DNA of 64,000 bases from Geoalkalibacter halelectricus. Lineage in GTDB: Bacteria; Desulfobacterota; Desulfuromonadia; Desulfuromonadales; Geoalkalibacteraceae. The stretch's first letter is position 1. Every line of letters begins with the position of its first letter. Shown here in pieces: positions 13,400-19,350 of the stretch. A model generated the notes under the pieces. The model saw nothing but the letters and a program-made list of their open reading frames with translations. It did no database searches and was not told the origin of the DNA. A program made the position numbers and the translations under genes. The stretch is from NCBI RefSeq assembly GCF_025263685.1, contig NZ_CP092109.1:558001-622000 (forward strand). Reading direction: 5' to 3'.

Positions 13400-14056
13400 A
13401 ATGGTGGCCGCCCCCAACCTGAAACAAAAAATGAAATCTCACTAATTTAAGGAAATTCTAACCGCATTGCGGAATAAATGTAAACGGTTTTTTTTCGCTA
13501 CGATCCGGCGCCCAGCCCCAACTGCAGGGCTTTTCCCACCTTGTCCCGGGTCCAATGGCAATCTCCGCCGGATGAAAAACAGATTAGCTACAAGATCCTT
13601 GCCTATTTTCATTGTGACTCTAGCCAGTTATCTTTCAAATGAGTGGCGCTTTCCTGAAACCTGCTGGCTTCTGACGTATACGTGGCATATCAAATCAGGG
13701 AGTTAGATTCCAAACGTAAAGACATATTTAATTATTGAATTAAAATACTCTTTATAAGTTTCAGGCCTGTCTGGATCGTCATTTGGCTGAATCAGCCTTC
13801 ATTCACCGTGAAGGTGTAAAAATAACCGACATTTCTTGGACGTTTTATGTTCGCTAACGAAAACCAACCACAGAGAAAGACTCCCGAGCAGGGAAAGGTT
13901 CCGACGCTCTTTCAGTGCCTTGCAAAAGCGTTAGGCTCTTTTCTTTACCTCCCCCCACCTGTCGAAATACCTTACACGGTCGAGCAGACGCAAAAAGGCC
14001 TGGCGCGGGGCCAGGCCTTTCGGTTTAAGCAGATAGGTGTCGAAACGGTGGAGAAG
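13400..14056. other. Gene-poor AT-rich region
   Basis: About 650 bases without a convincing gene. The first part holds the leader and promoter of the PilZ activator. It contains a perfect ACGTATACGT palindrome (13674-13683) and several short inverted repeats (GGCTGAATCAGCC near 13780, CTTCATTCACCGTGAAG near 13797). Short plus-strand open frames at 13467 and 13847 have no Shine-Dalgarno and no recognisable product. The right part holds the terminator at 13992-14020. The lower GC content suggests regulatory or small-RNA use. Confidence 0.4.
13992..14020 (-). terminator. Rho-independent terminator after the small selenoprotein gene
   Basis: On the minus strand AAAGGCCTGG-CCCCGCG-CCAGGCCTTTTT forms a perfect stem followed by a T-run. 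It lies 36 bases after the TAA of the 49-codon frame. The TGA of the shorter reading would lie about 96 bases away. Confidence 0.88.
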
Positions 14057-14206
14057 TTATTCGTCCTCGGGTGCCTTCTTCTTGTCCCTCCCGCCGGGAG
14101 AGCAACTATCGGCGATTCAGGTCGAGACTCCGAGGCGCGGAAGAATCCAGCGGTTCACCACGAACCAGACGGCCACGATGGCCAGGATGATCCAGAGATC
14201 TCGCAT
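14057..14206 (-). CDS. Putative small membrane selenoprotein (in-frame TGA as Sec)
   Basis: From ATG 14206 (AAAGGA seven bases upstream) the frame encodes one transmembrane helix (LWIILAIVAVWFVV) and then NRWILPRLGVST before a TGA at 14119-14117. Read through, it continues for 19 codons: IADSC, a Ser/Gly-rich turn and a charged tail DKKKAPEDE, ending in TAA, 36 bases before a terminator. Downstream of the TGA a hairpin CTCTCCC-GGC-GGGAGGG (14102-14086) begins 14 bases after the codon, the position of a bacterial SECIS element with G in the loop. A U-x4-C pair would form a redox motif. From memory, Geobacter relatives have small proteins with the same PRLGV motif followed by Cys; I cannot verify this here. 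If TGA is a stop, the product has 29 residues. Confidence 0.6.
14086..14102 (-). promoter_or_regulatory. Candidate SECIS hairpin
   Basis: A seven-base-pair stem (CTCTCCC / GGGAGGG, one G-T pair) with loop GGC starts 14 bases 3' of the in-frame TGA at 14119-14117. Bacterial SECIS elements are short stem-loops directly after UGA with a G in the first loop positions, read by SelB. Placement and loop fit; the exact structure would need folding. Confidence 0.5.
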
Positions 14207-14289
14207 AGGCTAGTCCTTTCTTTTTCATGCAAACATATCAATTTTTGCATGTTTGGTCAAGGAGCAAACCCAACCACAGGAACTCGGCC

Positions 14290-14715
14290 TTAAATGAGCA
14301 GGACGGGGCAGCGCGCCTGGTGCAGGGCGTAATTGGCCACCGAACCGAACAGCACGTCGCGAATTTCACCCATATGGCTGCGGCCAATCACCAGCAGGCT
14401 GAAGTTTTCGCTGTTGGCGATGCGCGGAATCACCTCGCGTGGATTGCCGAACTCCAGGCGCGGCTGCACCGATAAACCCGCCTCGGTAAAGCGCGCCGTC
14501 TGCTTGCTGAGAAACTGCTCGCCGGCCTCGCGGGCGCGATCCTTGACCATGTTCATCTGAAAGTCGGGAATCATGCGATAAGCGAGTCGGTCGATATTGA
14601 CGACATGCAGCAGGGTCAGGGGCGCGGAAAAACGCGCCTGGTTGGCGAGGACGAAATCCACCGTGCGCCGCGAGGTTTCCGAATCGTCCAGGGGCAGTAG
14701 GATTTTCACATCCAT
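14290..14715 (-). CDS. Universal stress protein, UspA family
   Basis: A 141-residue UspA-fold protein. It has MDVKILLPLDDSETSRRTVDF at the start and LVIGRSHMGEIRDVLFGSVANYAL (the G-x2-G-x9-G-S ATP-binding pattern) near the C-terminus, ending CPVLLI. Start set at ATG 14715, seven bases after GGAGG; an upstream in-frame start is less likely. It follows the TRAP large permease on the same strand. UspA proteins are known as partners of TRAP transporters (for example TeaD with TeaABC), where they bind ATP and modulate uptake, so a similar role is likely here. Confidence 0.9.
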   Translation of the reverse strand: MDVKILLPLDDSETSRRTVDFVLANQARFSAPLTLLHVVNIDRLAYRMIPDFQMNMVKDRAREAGEQFLSKQTARFTEAGLSVQPRLEFGNPREVIPRIANSENFSLLVIGRSHMGEIRDVLFGSVANYALHQARCPVLLI

Positions 14716-14812: not shown

Positions 14813-16108
14813 TTAGCCGCCGTGGCCGTAGAACAAGCGCGGCAGGAACAAAGCCAGATCGGGCCAGAAGGTCAAGAGCAGCAGAATGGCGAGCTGAATC
14901 AGAATAAACGGCAGCACCGCGCGCGAAACGTAAAGAACCCCCTTGTCGACCATGGCCCCGGAGATATAGAGACTCACCCCCAGGGGCGGCGTGCAATAGC
15001 CGATGCCGAGGTTGATGGTCATGATCAGGCCGAAATGCAGGGTGTCGACCTCGAACTGCGAGAGCAAGGGCAAAAAGATCGGGGTGAGGATCAGGGTCGC
15101 GGAAATGATGTCCATGAACATGCCGATGACCAGCAGAAGAATGTTCACCGCGAGCAGAAACACCCACTGGGATTGGATGTTCGATACCACCGCGTCGGCG
15201 ATCTGGGTGGGAATCTGCTCAAAGGCCAGGTACTCGCCGAACACCGAGGCCCCGGCGACGATGACCAGCAGGGTGGCCGAGGTGACCGCCGAGGAGACGA
15301 CGACTTTTTTGACGTCGCGCACCTTCATGTCGCGATGGATCACCAGCTCGACGAAAAAGGCGTAGAAGCAGGCCACCACCGCCGCCTCGTTGGCGGTGAA
15401 AAAGCCCGAGTAGATGCCGCCGAAGATCAGCACCGGCAGCAGCAACGCCCAGATGCTCTCACGCAGCACCGCCGCGACCTCGCGCAGGGTCGGCTTGGGC
15501 TGCACGGGCACGCCCTGCTTGCGGCACACAACATAGGCGTAGAGGGACATGGCGGCGATGATGAGAAAGCCGGGGATAAAGCCGGTGAGAAACAGCGCCT
15601 CCAGGGAGTCGTTGGTCACCATGGCGTAGAGGATCATGGCGATGGAGGGCGGGATGATGACCCCGAGGATCGGCGCGGTGGTCATGACCCCGACGCTGAA
15701 ACGCTCCTGGTAGCCGTGCCGCACCAGGGCCGGAATCATGAAGCCTCCGATGGCGACCACGGTGGCCACCGTGGAGCCGGAGATGGCGCCGAAGAAGCCG
15801 CAGGCGAGAATGCCGGCCATGGCCAGGCCGCCGGGCAGAAATCCGACCACCACGTTGGCGGTTTTCACCAGCTTGCTCACGATGGAGCCGGTGGTCATGA
15901 TGTTGCCGCACAGCACGAAGAACAGCACCACGATCAGGGCGAACTTGTCCATGCTGCGGTAGAGCACCTCGACGACGATCAGCGGGTCGATGCCGGCGAC
16001 CACGGTCAGGCCGAAGAGCCCGGTGAAGAACAGGGCCATGAACACCGGGACGGTGGCGGCCAGGGAACCAAGAAGCAGGGCAAGTATGATGAAATGGGAG
16101 GCTTCCAT
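14813..16108 (-). CDS. dctM: TRAP transporter large permease, DctM
   Basis: A 431-residue membrane protein with about twelve hydrophobic segments and the DctM signature (GFLPGGLAMAGILACGFFGAISGSTVATV near residue 90). It is the channel subunit of a tripartite ATP-independent transporter that uses the sodium or proton gradient. It starts six bases downstream of dctQ. The substrate class (dicarboxylate, other organic acid) cannot be told from the permease. Confidence 0.93.
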   Translation of the reverse strand: MEASHFIILALLLGSLAATVPVFMALFFTGLFGLTVVAGIDPLIVVEVLYRSMDKFALIVVLFFVLCGNIMTTGSIVSKLVKTANVVVGFLPGGLAMAGILACGFFGAISGSTVATVVAIGGFMIPALVRHGYQERFSVGVMTTAPILGVIIPPSIAMILYAMVTNDSLEALFLTGFIPGFLIIAAMSLYAYVVCRKQGVPVQPKPTLREVAAVLRESIWALLLPVLIFGGIYSGFFTANEAAVVACFYAFFVELVIHRDMKVRDVKKVVVSSAVTSATLLVIVAGASVFGEYLAFEQIPTQIADAVVSNIQSQWVFLLAVNILLLVIGMFMDIISATLILTPIFLPLLSQFEVDTLHFGLIMTINLGIGYCTPPLGVSLYISGAMVDKGVLYVSRAVLPFILIQLAILLLLTFWPDLALFLPRLFYGHGG

Positions 16109-16114
16109 GCTGGC

Positions 16115-16612
16115 TTATTCCCCGGCGGGGCCTCCTTTCCAGTCCTCGACCATGACGATGATGCTGCGAATGAACATCATCACCCCGACCGCCGGCAGCA
16201 CCGCATAGAACTTCCATTCGGCGATCTGCAAGGTGGAGGTGCGGGCGAATTCGTCCTGGTAGGCCATGGCCGTCATCTGCCAGCCGAGCCACACCATGAT
16301 GCCGGCGAAAAACAGCGCCGCCAGGTGGCTGAGCAGGGTCACGCCGCGCTTGAGCACCGGAAAGAGCTGCGGCAGGGCGTCGACGCGGATCAGGGAGCGG
16401 CTGCGCACGGCGGCGCTGGCGCCGACGTAGGTGGTGAAGAAGATGACCTTGCGCACCACCTCGTCGGACCAGTAGAGGCTGATGGGGGTGAATTTGCGCA
16501 GGAACACGTTGGCGAGGGCGACGATCAGGGCCGTCATGACGGCGATGAACAGGCTCCACTCCTCGACGAAGGCGAGAGTTTTGTCAATGGCGCGGGCGGT
16601 TTTTTTCCACAT
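16115..16612 (-). CDS. dctQ: TRAP transporter small permease, DctQ
   Basis: A 165-residue protein with four transmembrane segments and the DctQ pattern (an SLFIAVMTALIVALANVFLRK segment, FTTYVGASAAVRSRSLIRVD). It pairs with DctM in the inner membrane. It is preceded by a terminator-like hairpin after the binding-protein gene, which would lower permease expression relative to the binding protein. Confidence 0.9.
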   Translation of the reverse strand: MWKKTARAIDKTLAFVEEWSLFIAVMTALIVALANVFLRKFTPISLYWSDEVVRKVIFFTTYVGASAAVRSRSLIRVDALPQLFPVLKRGVTLLSHLAALFFAGIMVWLGWQMTAMAYQDEFARTSTLQIAEWKFYAVLPAVGVMMFIRSIIVMVEDWKGGPAGE

Positions 16613-16733: not shown

Positions 16734-17777
16734 CTAGGGCTCCAGGGTGGTGCGCACTTTCTCCAGGTAATCGGCGCCCATGCGCGCCCCCCAGCGCTCG
16801 AACACCGGCGCGGCCAGCTCGATCAAGCGGGCGCGCTCCTCGTCGGAGAGGGAGTAGAATTCGACGCCCGCGGCCTTGGCGGCGGCGATTTGCTCCTCGT
16901 GCTGACGCCGGGTGGCGTCACGCGAGCCGGCGCTTTCCTCGGCGATGGTCTCCAGCAGGATCTCTTGCAGATCGGCGGGCAGACGGTCGAACCAGCGCTT
17001 GTTGATCAGATGCACGAACAGCCCCTGGGCGTAATTGACCTCGGTGAAGGATTTGGCGATCTCGAATTTACGCGTCAGGCTACAGACGATGGGGGTGTGG
17101 TCGAGGCCGTTGATGACCCCGGTCTGCAGGGCCTGGGGCACGTCGGGCCAGGGCATGACGGTGAAACGCAGGCCCCAGGCGCGATAGATGTCGGTGTTGA
17201 CCGGCGCCTCGGCGATACGGAAATTGACCCGCGCCGCCTCCTCGAGGCTGCGCACCGGGGTGGTCGTCGCCCAGCCGTAGGGGCCGTAACCGGTGATGTC
17301 GGCAACCATGACGCCCTGGCGCAGGGCGCTGTCGCGAAACGGCTCCCAGAGCTCGGGCGTGTCACGGAACTTGTCGAGCTTATCGAAGGTATCGACGACG
17401 AAGGGCAGGTTGACCACGCCGAGCTGATCGGAGAGATTGGCCGCCGCCACCGAGGAACTCATCATGCCCTGGACGGCACCCAGGCGCAGCTTCTGCAGCA
17501 CGTCACGCTCGCCGCCGAGCTGCGCCAGGGGACGGAAATCCACATAGAGACGCCCCTCGGAGCGCTCCCACACCTTGTCGCGGATGCGAAAGCCCACGCC
17601 GATGCCGTCGATGGCGGGATGCGACACATTGGAGAGAATGTAGGTGAACTGGGCGCCCGAGGGGTCAAAGGCCGGACGCCAGGAAGCCAGGGGATCAGCG
17701 GGCTCCTGAGCCGAAACCGAGAGCGAAGCCGACACAACCATCACCAGGGCCAATATGAGAGCAGAAATTTTTTTCAC
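16734..17777 (-). CDS. dctP: TRAP substrate-binding protein DctP, copy 1
   Basis: A 347-residue periplasmic binding protein with a Sec signal peptide (KKISALILALVMVVSASLSVSA). It has the DctP features RIRDKVWERSEGRLYVDFRP, the substrate-binding Arg region VNFRIAEAPVN, and TGVINGLDHTPIVC. Start set at GTG 17777 because GGAAGGAG lies six bases upstream. It is closely similar over its whole length to the adjacent copy at 17923-18975, showing a tandem duplication. Differences cluster near the C-terminus and around residues 150-170, so the two may differ in specificity or affinity. Confidence 0.92.
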   Translation of the reverse strand: MKKISALILALVMVVSASLSVSAQEPADPLASWRPAFDPSGAQFTYILSNVSHPAIDGIGVGFRIRDKVWERSEGRLYVDFRPLAQLGGERDVLQKLRLGAVQGMMSSSVAAANLSDQLGVVNLPFVVDTFDKLDKFRDTPELWEPFRDSALRQGVMVADITGYGPYGWATTTPVRSLEEAARVNFRIAEAPVNTDIYRAWGLRFTVMPWPDVPQALQTGVINGLDHTPIVCSLTRKFEIAKSFTEVNYAQGLFVHLINKRWFDRLPADLQEILLETIAEESAGSRDATRRQHEEQIAAAKAAGVEFYSLSDEERARLIELAAPVFERWGARMGADYLEKVRTTLEP

Positions 17778-17922
17778 CGCGTTACTCCTTCCAAGGGTTG
17801 TTGACCTGCCGCGGCAGGGCCGCAACAGAATAAAACAAACCCCGTTTTAAAAAAAGCGTTTTTTCTTCCGCCACCTGCGCCGCCCCTGACGCCGGGAGGG
17901 ATCCCCGGTCACGGCACGCGGC

Positions 17923-18975
17923 TTAGTTCTCGTCCGCCAGGCGGGTGCGCACCAACTCCAGATACTCCGGGCCGATGCGCTCGGCCCAGCGCTCATAGAC
18001 CGGCTCGGCCAGAGTGCGCAGCCGCGCGCGATCTTCCTCGGGCAGCTCCAGGAAGGTCACTCCGGCGGCCTTGACCCGGGCGATTTCGGCTTCGTACTGG
18101 ACACGGCCGCGCTCGCGGGCGGCGGCACTCTCCTCCTGGATGGTTTCGAGCAGAATGGCGCGCAGGTCGGCGGGCAGCCGCTCGAGCCAGCGGGTGTTGA
18201 TCATGTGAATATACAGGCCCTGGGCGTAGTCGAGGGGGGTGAAGTAACGGGCCACATCAAACTTGCGCGTGATGCTGCACACGATGAGCGTGTGGTCGAG
18301 GCCGTTGATGACCCCGGTCTGCAGGGCCTGGTGAACATCGGGCCAGGGCATGACGGTGAAACGCAGCCCCCAGGCGCGGTACAGGTCGGTATTGACCGGC
18401 GCTTCGGCGATGCGGAAGTTGACCCGCGCGGCATCCTCGAGATTGGCCACGGGCGTGGTGGTCGCCCAGCCGTAACCGCCGTAGGTGGTGAAATCCACCA
18501 CCGACACGCCCTGCGGGCGCGCCGCCTCGGAGAAGGGCTCGAACAGTTCGGGGGTGTTGCGGAAGGTTTCAAGCTTCTCGAAGGAGTCGACGACGAAAGG
18601 CAGATTGACGATGCCCAGGCGCGGGCTGAGGTTGGCGGCCGCCACCGACGAACACATCATGCCGTGGATGGCCCCGAGACGCAGCTTTTGCAGCACGTCG
18701 CGCTCGCCGCCCAATTGGGCCAGGGGCCGGAAATCGACATAAAGCCGACCCTCGGAGCGCTCCCACACCTTGTCGCGGATGCGAAAACCCACGCCGATGC
18801 CCTCGATGGAGGGATGGTCGATGTTGGAGAGCAGGTAGGTATGTTGCGCACCGCTGGGATCGAAGGCAGGCCGCCAGGAGGCCAGGGGATCGTCCTGGGC
18901 ATGAACGGTGGTCGAAAAGAGCAAAAACAGGGACGCCAGGAGGGCGAGACCCAGGGCCGCGGATTTCTTCGCCAT
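17923..18975 (-). CDS. dctP: TRAP substrate-binding protein DctP, copy 2
   Basis: A 350-residue paralogue of the neighbouring DctP with its own signal peptide (MAKKSAALGLALLASLFLLF) and the same core motifs (DPLASWRPAFDPSGAQ, FRIRDKVWERSEGRLYVDF, FRIAEAPVNTDLYRAWGLRF, QTGVINGLDHTLIVC). It is the first gene of the transporter operon. About 145 bases separate it from copy 1. Both copies keep the residues expected for ligand binding, so neither looks decayed. Ligand unknown. Confidence 0.92.
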   Translation of the reverse strand: MAKKSAALGLALLASLFLLFSTTVHAQDDPLASWRPAFDPSGAQHTYLLSNIDHPSIEGIGVGFRIRDKVWERSEGRLYVDFRPLAQLGGERDVLQKLRLGAIHGMMCSSVAAANLSPRLGIVNLPFVVDSFEKLETFRNTPELFEPFSEAARPQGVSVVDFTTYGGYGWATTTPVANLEDAARVNFRIAEAPVNTDLYRAWGLRFTVMPWPDVHQALQTGVINGLDHTLIVCSITRKFDVARYFTPLDYAQGLYIHMINTRWLERLPADLRAILLETIQEESAAARERGRVQYEAEIARVKAAGVTFLELPEEDRARLRTLAEPVYERWAERIGPEYLELVRTRLADEN

Positions 18976-19125: not shown

Positions 19126-19155
19126 GATTACCGAATGTTTTTGAGGAGGTGCTCT

Positions 19156-19350
19156 ATGACCGTCAATCGCTACTTAAGGCTGATCGCGGGATTCTTCGTC
19201 ATGCTCAGCGTGCTGCTGGCCGCGCTTTACTCCCTGCACTGGTTGTGGTTTACCGCCTTTGTCGGTCTCAACCTGTTTCAGAGCGCGTTCAGCGACTGGT
19301 GCCCGATGATGACGCTGCTCAGGCGCCTGGGGGTGCGCGATGACGCCTGA
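19156..19350 (+). CDS. DUF2892 small inner-membrane protein
   Basis: A 64-residue protein with two hydrophobic helices (LRLIAGFFVMLSVLLAAL and HWLWFTAFVGLNLFQSAF) and the family's Cys-containing SDWCPM motif followed by LLRRLGV. This is the DUF2892 pattern, found alone or fused to rhodanese domains (YgaP). The single Cys facing the membrane surface may relate to sulfur or redox handling, but the function is unknown. ATG 19156 is preceded by GAGGAGG. It is convergent with the chemoreceptor gene nine bases away. Confidence 0.85.
   Translation: MTVNRYLRLIAGFFVMLSVLLAALYSLHWLWFTAFVGLNLFQSAFSDWCPMMTLLRRLGVRDDA

Follow-up and report, generated by a model that had tools for sequence, protein, structure and literature searches.

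A predicted family of small membrane selenoproteins found from Geoalkalibacter halelectricus and several bacterial phyla

We investigated whether an in-frame TGA in a short open reading frame (ORF) of Geoalkalibacter halelectricus is read as a stop or as selenocysteine (Sec, U), and what the resulting protein might do. The ORF lies in a 64,000-nucleotide stretch, hereafter the window. A first-pass annotation, made from the letters of the window, had proposed a new small membrane selenoprotein.

The reading frame and its surroundings

The ORF, its ribosome site, the TGA and the 19 codons behind it are all present as first described; they lie on the minus strand, which the first-pass annotation had left unstated. 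The start codon ATG occupies 14206-14204 and the final stop TAA 14059-14057. The 29 codons before the TGA are MRDLWIILAIVAVWFVVNRWILPRLGVST, and the 19 codons between TGA and TAA are IADSCSPGGRDKKKAPEDE. With TGA as U, the protein begins with MRDLW, continues past the helix as GVSTUIADSC and ends in PEDE. A standard ORF call stops at residue 29, as had been anticipated for gene finders. The features of the region are as follows.

14057..14206, minus: predicted small selenoprotein gene, 49 residues with U30, TAA included (ORF read and homologues)
14117..14119, minus: TGA, probable Sec codon (U30); a single in-frame TGA per homologue in 79 genomes, and Cys at this place in four genomes that lack SelB over cut-off
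14214..14219, minus: ribosome binding site AAAGGA, read from the sequence
14082..14105, minus: SECIS-like hairpin, loop GGC at 14095-14093 (folding, synonymous recodings and family covariation)
14135..14203, minus: single helix, residues 2-24, taken as the membrane anchor (AlphaFold model)
13992..14020, minus: probable intrinsic terminator, GC-rich stem, loop and T-run (by eye), starting 36 bases past the TAA
14290..14748, minus: presumed universal stress protein (Usp) gene, ending about 84 bases upstream of the selenoprotein gene
14813..16612, minus: two genes that we take to encode DctM-like and DctQ-like membrane subunits of a TRAP transporter
16734-17825, minus: TRAP solute-binding protein gene, first tandem copy (NF037995, over cut-off)
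17923-18975, minus: TRAP solute-binding protein gene, second tandem copy (blastp cluster)
19135-19350, plus: small YgaP-like transmembrane protein gene (PF11127, 51 bits)

The stem and T-run of the terminator were seen by eye where the first-pass annotation had placed them, and a terminator scan of the region reported nothing at 13992-14020, we think because some of the T's pair into the stem. The plus-strand reading of 14057-14206 gave no such protein, and a plus-strand ORF of 148 codons (13847-14293) was taken for a shadow ORF. In addition, the two tandem TRAP solute-binding genes belong to one cluster, as they do in loci L032 and L051, and the YgaP-like kind is also found, by cluster, next to the family member in L103 and L174.

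Decoding of the TGA

The 49-residue query matched 79 of 98 genomes (its own included) at E ≤ 7.4e-6, and in every one of the 79 the homologue contains a single in-frame TGA. Among 30 of these that were aligned, W14, W20, L22, P23, G26, T29, U30 and C35 were invariant, and a family profile built from the 30 matched 223 of 277 genomes of the host's class, Desulfuromonadia (E ≤ 0.01), and 167 of 395 genomes of the host's phylum (E ≤ 0.001). In both searches, every row among the matches listed contained a TGA inside the match. A contig collection yielded 435 stretches that encode a relative; the best 80 of the 435 all carry the TGA, and their titles include Planctomycetes, Acidobacteria, Verrucomicrobia and Spirochaetes. 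Matches were also found in samples of Planctomycetota (the phylum of L052, Singulisphaera; 26 of 294 genomes), Acidobacteriota (that of L061; 60 of 247) and the phylum of L042, which is titled Verrucomicrobiia (4 of 194, with strong matches in only one genome), the weakest matches in each of these lists being doubtful.

The family motif is [NQ][RK]W[IV]LP[RK]xG[VI]xTU[LMI]xxxC, which places Sec just past the helix. We gathered 99 distinct sequences with a search pattern in which W, LP, G, T and U are fixed; conservation can therefore be gauged from the other columns only. Cys occurs at +5 after U in 97 of the 99; the homologues thus do not end at the TGA. The codons behind it are conserved as well, with pN/pS of 0.32 after the TGA versus 0.22 before, while pS itself was 0.54 before and 0.32 after (111 close pairs, not independent); a lower pS after the TGA is expected if the RNA is also under selection. 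Neither TAA nor TAG stood at the TGA position in any of the homologues read (the best 80 of 435 and places from two phylum samples described below). As judged from these comparisons, conservation among homologues exceeds chance.

The host genome carries the Sec machinery that the first-pass annotation had suggested looking for. SelD (G000:C1:692433-693356, with an in-frame TGA inside the match), SelB (G000:C1:693443-695311) and SelA (G000:C1:695403-696500) are encoded in one cluster, and a tRNA-Sec with anticodon TCA scored 75.6 bits against a gathering score of 47. Across the class, the family was matched in 209 of the 236 genomes with SelB (missing in 27) and in 14 of the 41 without SelB over cut-off (Fisher p 6e-13, a value that ignores kinship). 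Eleven of those 14 genomes are 63-87% complete, and one of the 14, G081, had a weak match (E 0.004). The genomes G042, G083 and G241 are 96-99% complete and combine a family match with no SelB over cut-off, which may reflect an assembly gap, a recent loss or something else.

Homologues with Cys in place of the TGA were also found. We read 19 places in the planctomycete and acidobacterial samples, comprising 13 rows without a stop and six divergent rows with TGA; across the three phylum samples, three further rows without a stop, all weak, were left out (the second match of G656, G905 and G846). Cys occupies the U position at four places, L174, L176 and L177 from the planctomycete sample and L179 from the acidobacterial one, and U at 13; L178 and L186 were judged not homologous. 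The Cys form of L176 reads PRLGMQTCLSGMCG. SelB over the curated cut-off was absent from all four Cys-form genomes, three of which are single contigs of 4.8 to 8.3 Mb. Conversely, SelB was present in 15 of the 16 other genomes of that search (13 read as TGA forms, three known only from match rows), G304, a 2.1 Mb assembly, being the one that lacks it over cut-off. Among 20 additional TGA-form genomes that contain named loci, 19 have SelB, and the genome of L058 has none over cut-off. Eight divergent forms from the two samples (L175, L180, L181, L183, L184, L185, L188 and L190) keep U and have no Cys at +5. The U-Cys pair is therefore not required everywhere, and Sec looks more essential than that Cys.

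A bacterial SECIS element is a hairpin just 3' of the UGA with a G in its apical loop. The window hairpin starts 11 nt after the TGA (14 counted from its T, the figure first given) and has 10 pairs, one bulge and the loop GGC, which bears out the earlier description. On its own, its folding energy of −12.2 kcal/mol does not stand out (z −0.61, matched by 54 of 200 dinucleotide shuffles); against synonymous recodings with the codon usage of L032, p was 0.035. In the family, the main loop begins 17-28 nt after the TGA in 91 of 98 distinct sequences, and G is among the first two loop bases in 78 of those 91. The codon usage of neighbouring genes was applied to 66 of the 99 sequences, the other 33 being without a gene table. 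At these 66 loci, the mean hairpin energy was −7.3 kcal/mol versus −2.1 for synonymous recodings, with p < 0.05 at 36 loci and a combined p of 5e-27 (related loci treated as independent); 60 loci had a hairpin at the tested place and six lacked one. Applied to the 42 bases preceding the TGA, this test gave nothing (mean z 0.02, 5 of 66), and with the family's own codon usage the excess was weaker (mean z −1.2, 30 of 98 below 0.05). Among 54 aligned sequences with C at +5 and P at +8, 81% of stem cells were paired versus 52-63% when the stem was slid, and 27 cells had changed on both sides of a pair versus 4.3 in shuffles, the structure having been derived from the same sequences. The number of further pair types in the stem was not unusual (7, reached by 151 of 500 shuffles). 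The post-TGA hairpin is stronger than the protein sequence requires.

Homologues, Cys forms, hairpin and machinery together support the first-pass reading of a 49-residue protein with Sec at the TGA, and we consider it very probable that the TGA is decoded as Sec and that the gene belongs to a family of membrane selenoproteins. Each of the three observations that the first-pass annotation had named as refuting its reading was looked for and turned out otherwise. One alternative is that translation simply stops at the TGA, which would yield a membrane peptide of 29 residues and leave the downstream conservation as a coincidence. The codons before the TGA would make a plausible peptide, and UGA does terminate in these genomes, since 34 of the 99 members use TGA as their final stop as well. 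However, the selection on the residues after the TGA, the lack of TAA or TAG at that position in the homologues read, the Cys homologues that run straight through, the selected hairpin and the co-occurrence with SelB all argue against this alternative, which we regard as very unlikely. Insertion of an ordinary amino acid by a near-cognate tRNA, which the three near-complete class genomes without SelB over cut-off would allow, is scarcely credible in view of the co-occurrence with SelB, of the four Cys forms, whose genomes lack SelB over cut-off, and of a hairpin positioned as is typical of bacterial SECIS elements.

Topology, gene neighbourhoods and possible roles

The single transmembrane helix of the first-pass annotation is consistent with the AlphaFold model, in which residues 2-24 form a helix and the tail has no confident structure (mean pLDDT 66.5). 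Over the 99 sequences, the mean net charge is −0.6 ahead of the helix, +1.9 across the 13 residues preceding U and −0.9 in the tail. Under the positive-inside rule for membrane topology, the Sec-bearing tail most likely faces the cytoplasm, because the positive residues follow the helix. We infer a function as a membrane-anchored selenol; the redox protein of the first-pass annotation is a putative role.

The gene neighbourhoods were surveyed at 85 loci (80 named loci, the window and the four Cys forms). Neighbours were clustered by blastp, and a GC-position score was applied against antisense ORFs, some of which remain. Cluster labels come from tested members of L176, L109, L064, L174, L179, L088, L060 and L049, while the RND, TRAP-subunit and Usp names are ones that we presume. 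Neighbours vary by lineage, and no cluster occurs at more than 19 of the 85 loci. The first-pass placement after a TRAP/Usp operon holds at the window and does not extend to the family, in which TRAP or Usp genes lie near only 11 of the 85 loci. Within the host's class, the neighbours noted were TRAP/Usp genes, a CpxRA-like pair, RND-type efflux genes or nothing recurrent.

Sulfur genes lie within about 5 kb of only 14 of the 85 loci, and nine of the 14 are planctomycete. Six of the nine loci titled as planctomycetes have them (L052, L064, L088, L094, L103 and L109, but not L047, L081 or L086), as do the Cys forms L174, L176 and L177 from the planctomycete sample; the remaining five comprise L042, L179, the window and two loci with no title beyond 'bacterium', L080 and L089. 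Besides L042, three of the 14 (L103, L174 and the window) were counted for a YgaP-like membrane gene alone, and in the host's class the sole sulfur sign is this YgaP-like gene of the window, 5 kb away from the selenoprotein gene. The gene order in L176 and L177 is TauE/SafE, MBL-rhodanese (these two overlapping by four bases), the small Cys gene and a flavoprotein resembling sulfide:quinone reductase (SQR). The small gene starts 10 bases after the MBL-rhodanese gene in L176 and overlaps it by four bases in L177, and the flavoprotein ORF overlaps the small gene in both. In NCBIfam, this flavoprotein scored best against type III sulfide quinone reductase, at 259 bits and thus short of the cut-off of 525. 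Two YeeE/YedE proteins are encoded at L109 and a SulP permease at L064, each locus also having an MBL-rhodanese gene by cluster; about 400 bases upstream of the Cys form L179 lies the gene of a flavoprotein that contains a rhodanese domain.

Because planctomycete Cys and Sec forms sit in operons with a TauE/SafE exporter, MBL-rhodanese and an SQR-like flavoprotein, or with YeeE/YedE sulfur transporters, a role in handling reactive sulfur at the membrane is possible, and we put it forward tentatively. In the explanation that we favor, SelB and tRNA-Sec, directed by the hairpin 11 nt downstream, very probably decode the TGA as Sec; the N-terminal helix would anchor the 49-residue protein in the inner membrane; the selenolate could, in most members, bond through Se-S to the Cys at +5; and the leading candidate for the task is that reactive sulfur such as persulfide or polysulfide is captured or handed on there. 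More speculative is a broader reading, which we doubt more than we favor, that this is a founding family of membrane-tethered selenol microproteins, in which the selenolate would take sulfane sulfur from sulfide oxidation and hand it to rhodanese or persulfide-dioxygenase partners, with Sec kept in nearly all lineages and Cys used only where the Sec machinery was lost.

Two other functions were weighed against reactive-sulfur handling. It seems rather unlikely that the selenoprotein acts as a peroxide or thiol switch bound to the membrane, or as a small subunit within a larger complex there: a presumed rubrerythrin is encoded downstream on the opposite strand at 12 of the 85 loci (within 1.5 kb at 10), and the conservation of WILP next to the membrane hints at a surface for a partner, but no neighbour cluster goes beyond 19 of the 85 loci, as noted above. 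A selenoprotein that uses its Sec and Cys to bind a metal or metalloid at the membrane appears improbable. It would suit the genes that we take to encode RND-type efflux or outer-membrane factors near 10 of the 85 loci, the CpxA-like kinase near eight and the ArsR-type genes that adjoin L040, L046 and L049, whereas the family has one widely conserved Cys besides U, and even this is missing in some forms. The L049 regulator scored over the cut-off of NF033788, a metalloregulator, but it also weakly resembles the sulfur sensor BigR (42 bits, cut-off 155), so the ArsR-type regulators do not settle metal versus sulfur.

Relation to known families

None of the 30 aligned members or four Cys forms had a Pfam or NCBIfam model near its cut-off. 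Matches to EmbC/Arabinose_trans and to ATP synthase b' were far below cut-off and were taken as chance helix matches; searches of PHROGs and the PDB gave weak matches only, and the best in PHROGs (E 0.005) was likewise taken as chance. In the available part of a 2026 inventory of 119 prokaryotic selenoprotein families (PMC13188914), none fits by model, name or motif, the comparison being limited to name and motif for entries that are listed with a cd or PTHR identifier or with no model at all. The family was also not found in the accessible main-text portions of PMC12013277, PMC1794560, PMC1914089, PMC1242214, PMC4807772, PMC5029168 and PMC9312934. The literature on selenoproteins and sulfide operons yielded no description, although a report in subscription journals is possible. 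Thus, the family appears to be in no catalogue consulted, yet widespread.

Among the families in the available part of the inventory, TsoA (NF045695) has the motif LULAxC, with U and a nearby Cys (PMC13188914). TsoA and similar listed families share with ours a UGA-encoded Sec with a close downstream Cys; in contrast, the spacing here is U-x4-C, the protein is a single-helix microprotein, and no NCBIfam model fits the 30 members. The eukaryotic SelK and SelS are small, cross the membrane once and carry Sec in a charged tail. They resemble the protein described here in this respect, but they are longer as well as eukaryotic.

The cst and bigR sulfide-detoxification operons contain a persulfide dioxygenase or rhodanese, TauE, sulfide quinone reductase and an ArsR-type regulator. 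To our knowledge, they hold no small Sec or Cys membrane protein, and in lineages other than the planctomycetes the small selenoprotein gene lies elsewhere. The gene content of these operons, cst of Staphylococcus (PMC5480029) and bigR (PMC5823870), resembles the neighbours of several planctomycete members.

The family may be among the commonest selenoproteins of Desulfuromonadia, because it was matched in 209 of the 236 class genomes with SelB. According to the part of its description available, deep-Sep keeps only those candidates that have a known Sec homologue or enough Cys homologues (PMC12013277). One likely reason why the family was overlooked is that deep-Sep needs such homologues and Cys forms are rare (four found). 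This suggests that selenoproteomes miss microproteins, and the family offers a concrete target for studying what selenium does at the membrane in bacteria that reduce metals and sulfur.

The FeoB-associated Cys-rich membrane protein is short, with one helix and a Cys tail. The likeness lies in the one-helix shape and in the genes directly downstream of the small selenoprotein gene at one locus (L047:6303-8873), which we take to be FeoA/FeoB-like; no Pfam match to this protein came near cut-off. In addition, L048, L055, L057, L066 and L067 all have a methyltransferase-like gene upstream on the opposite strand and a small Cys-rich protein gene downstream on the same strand.
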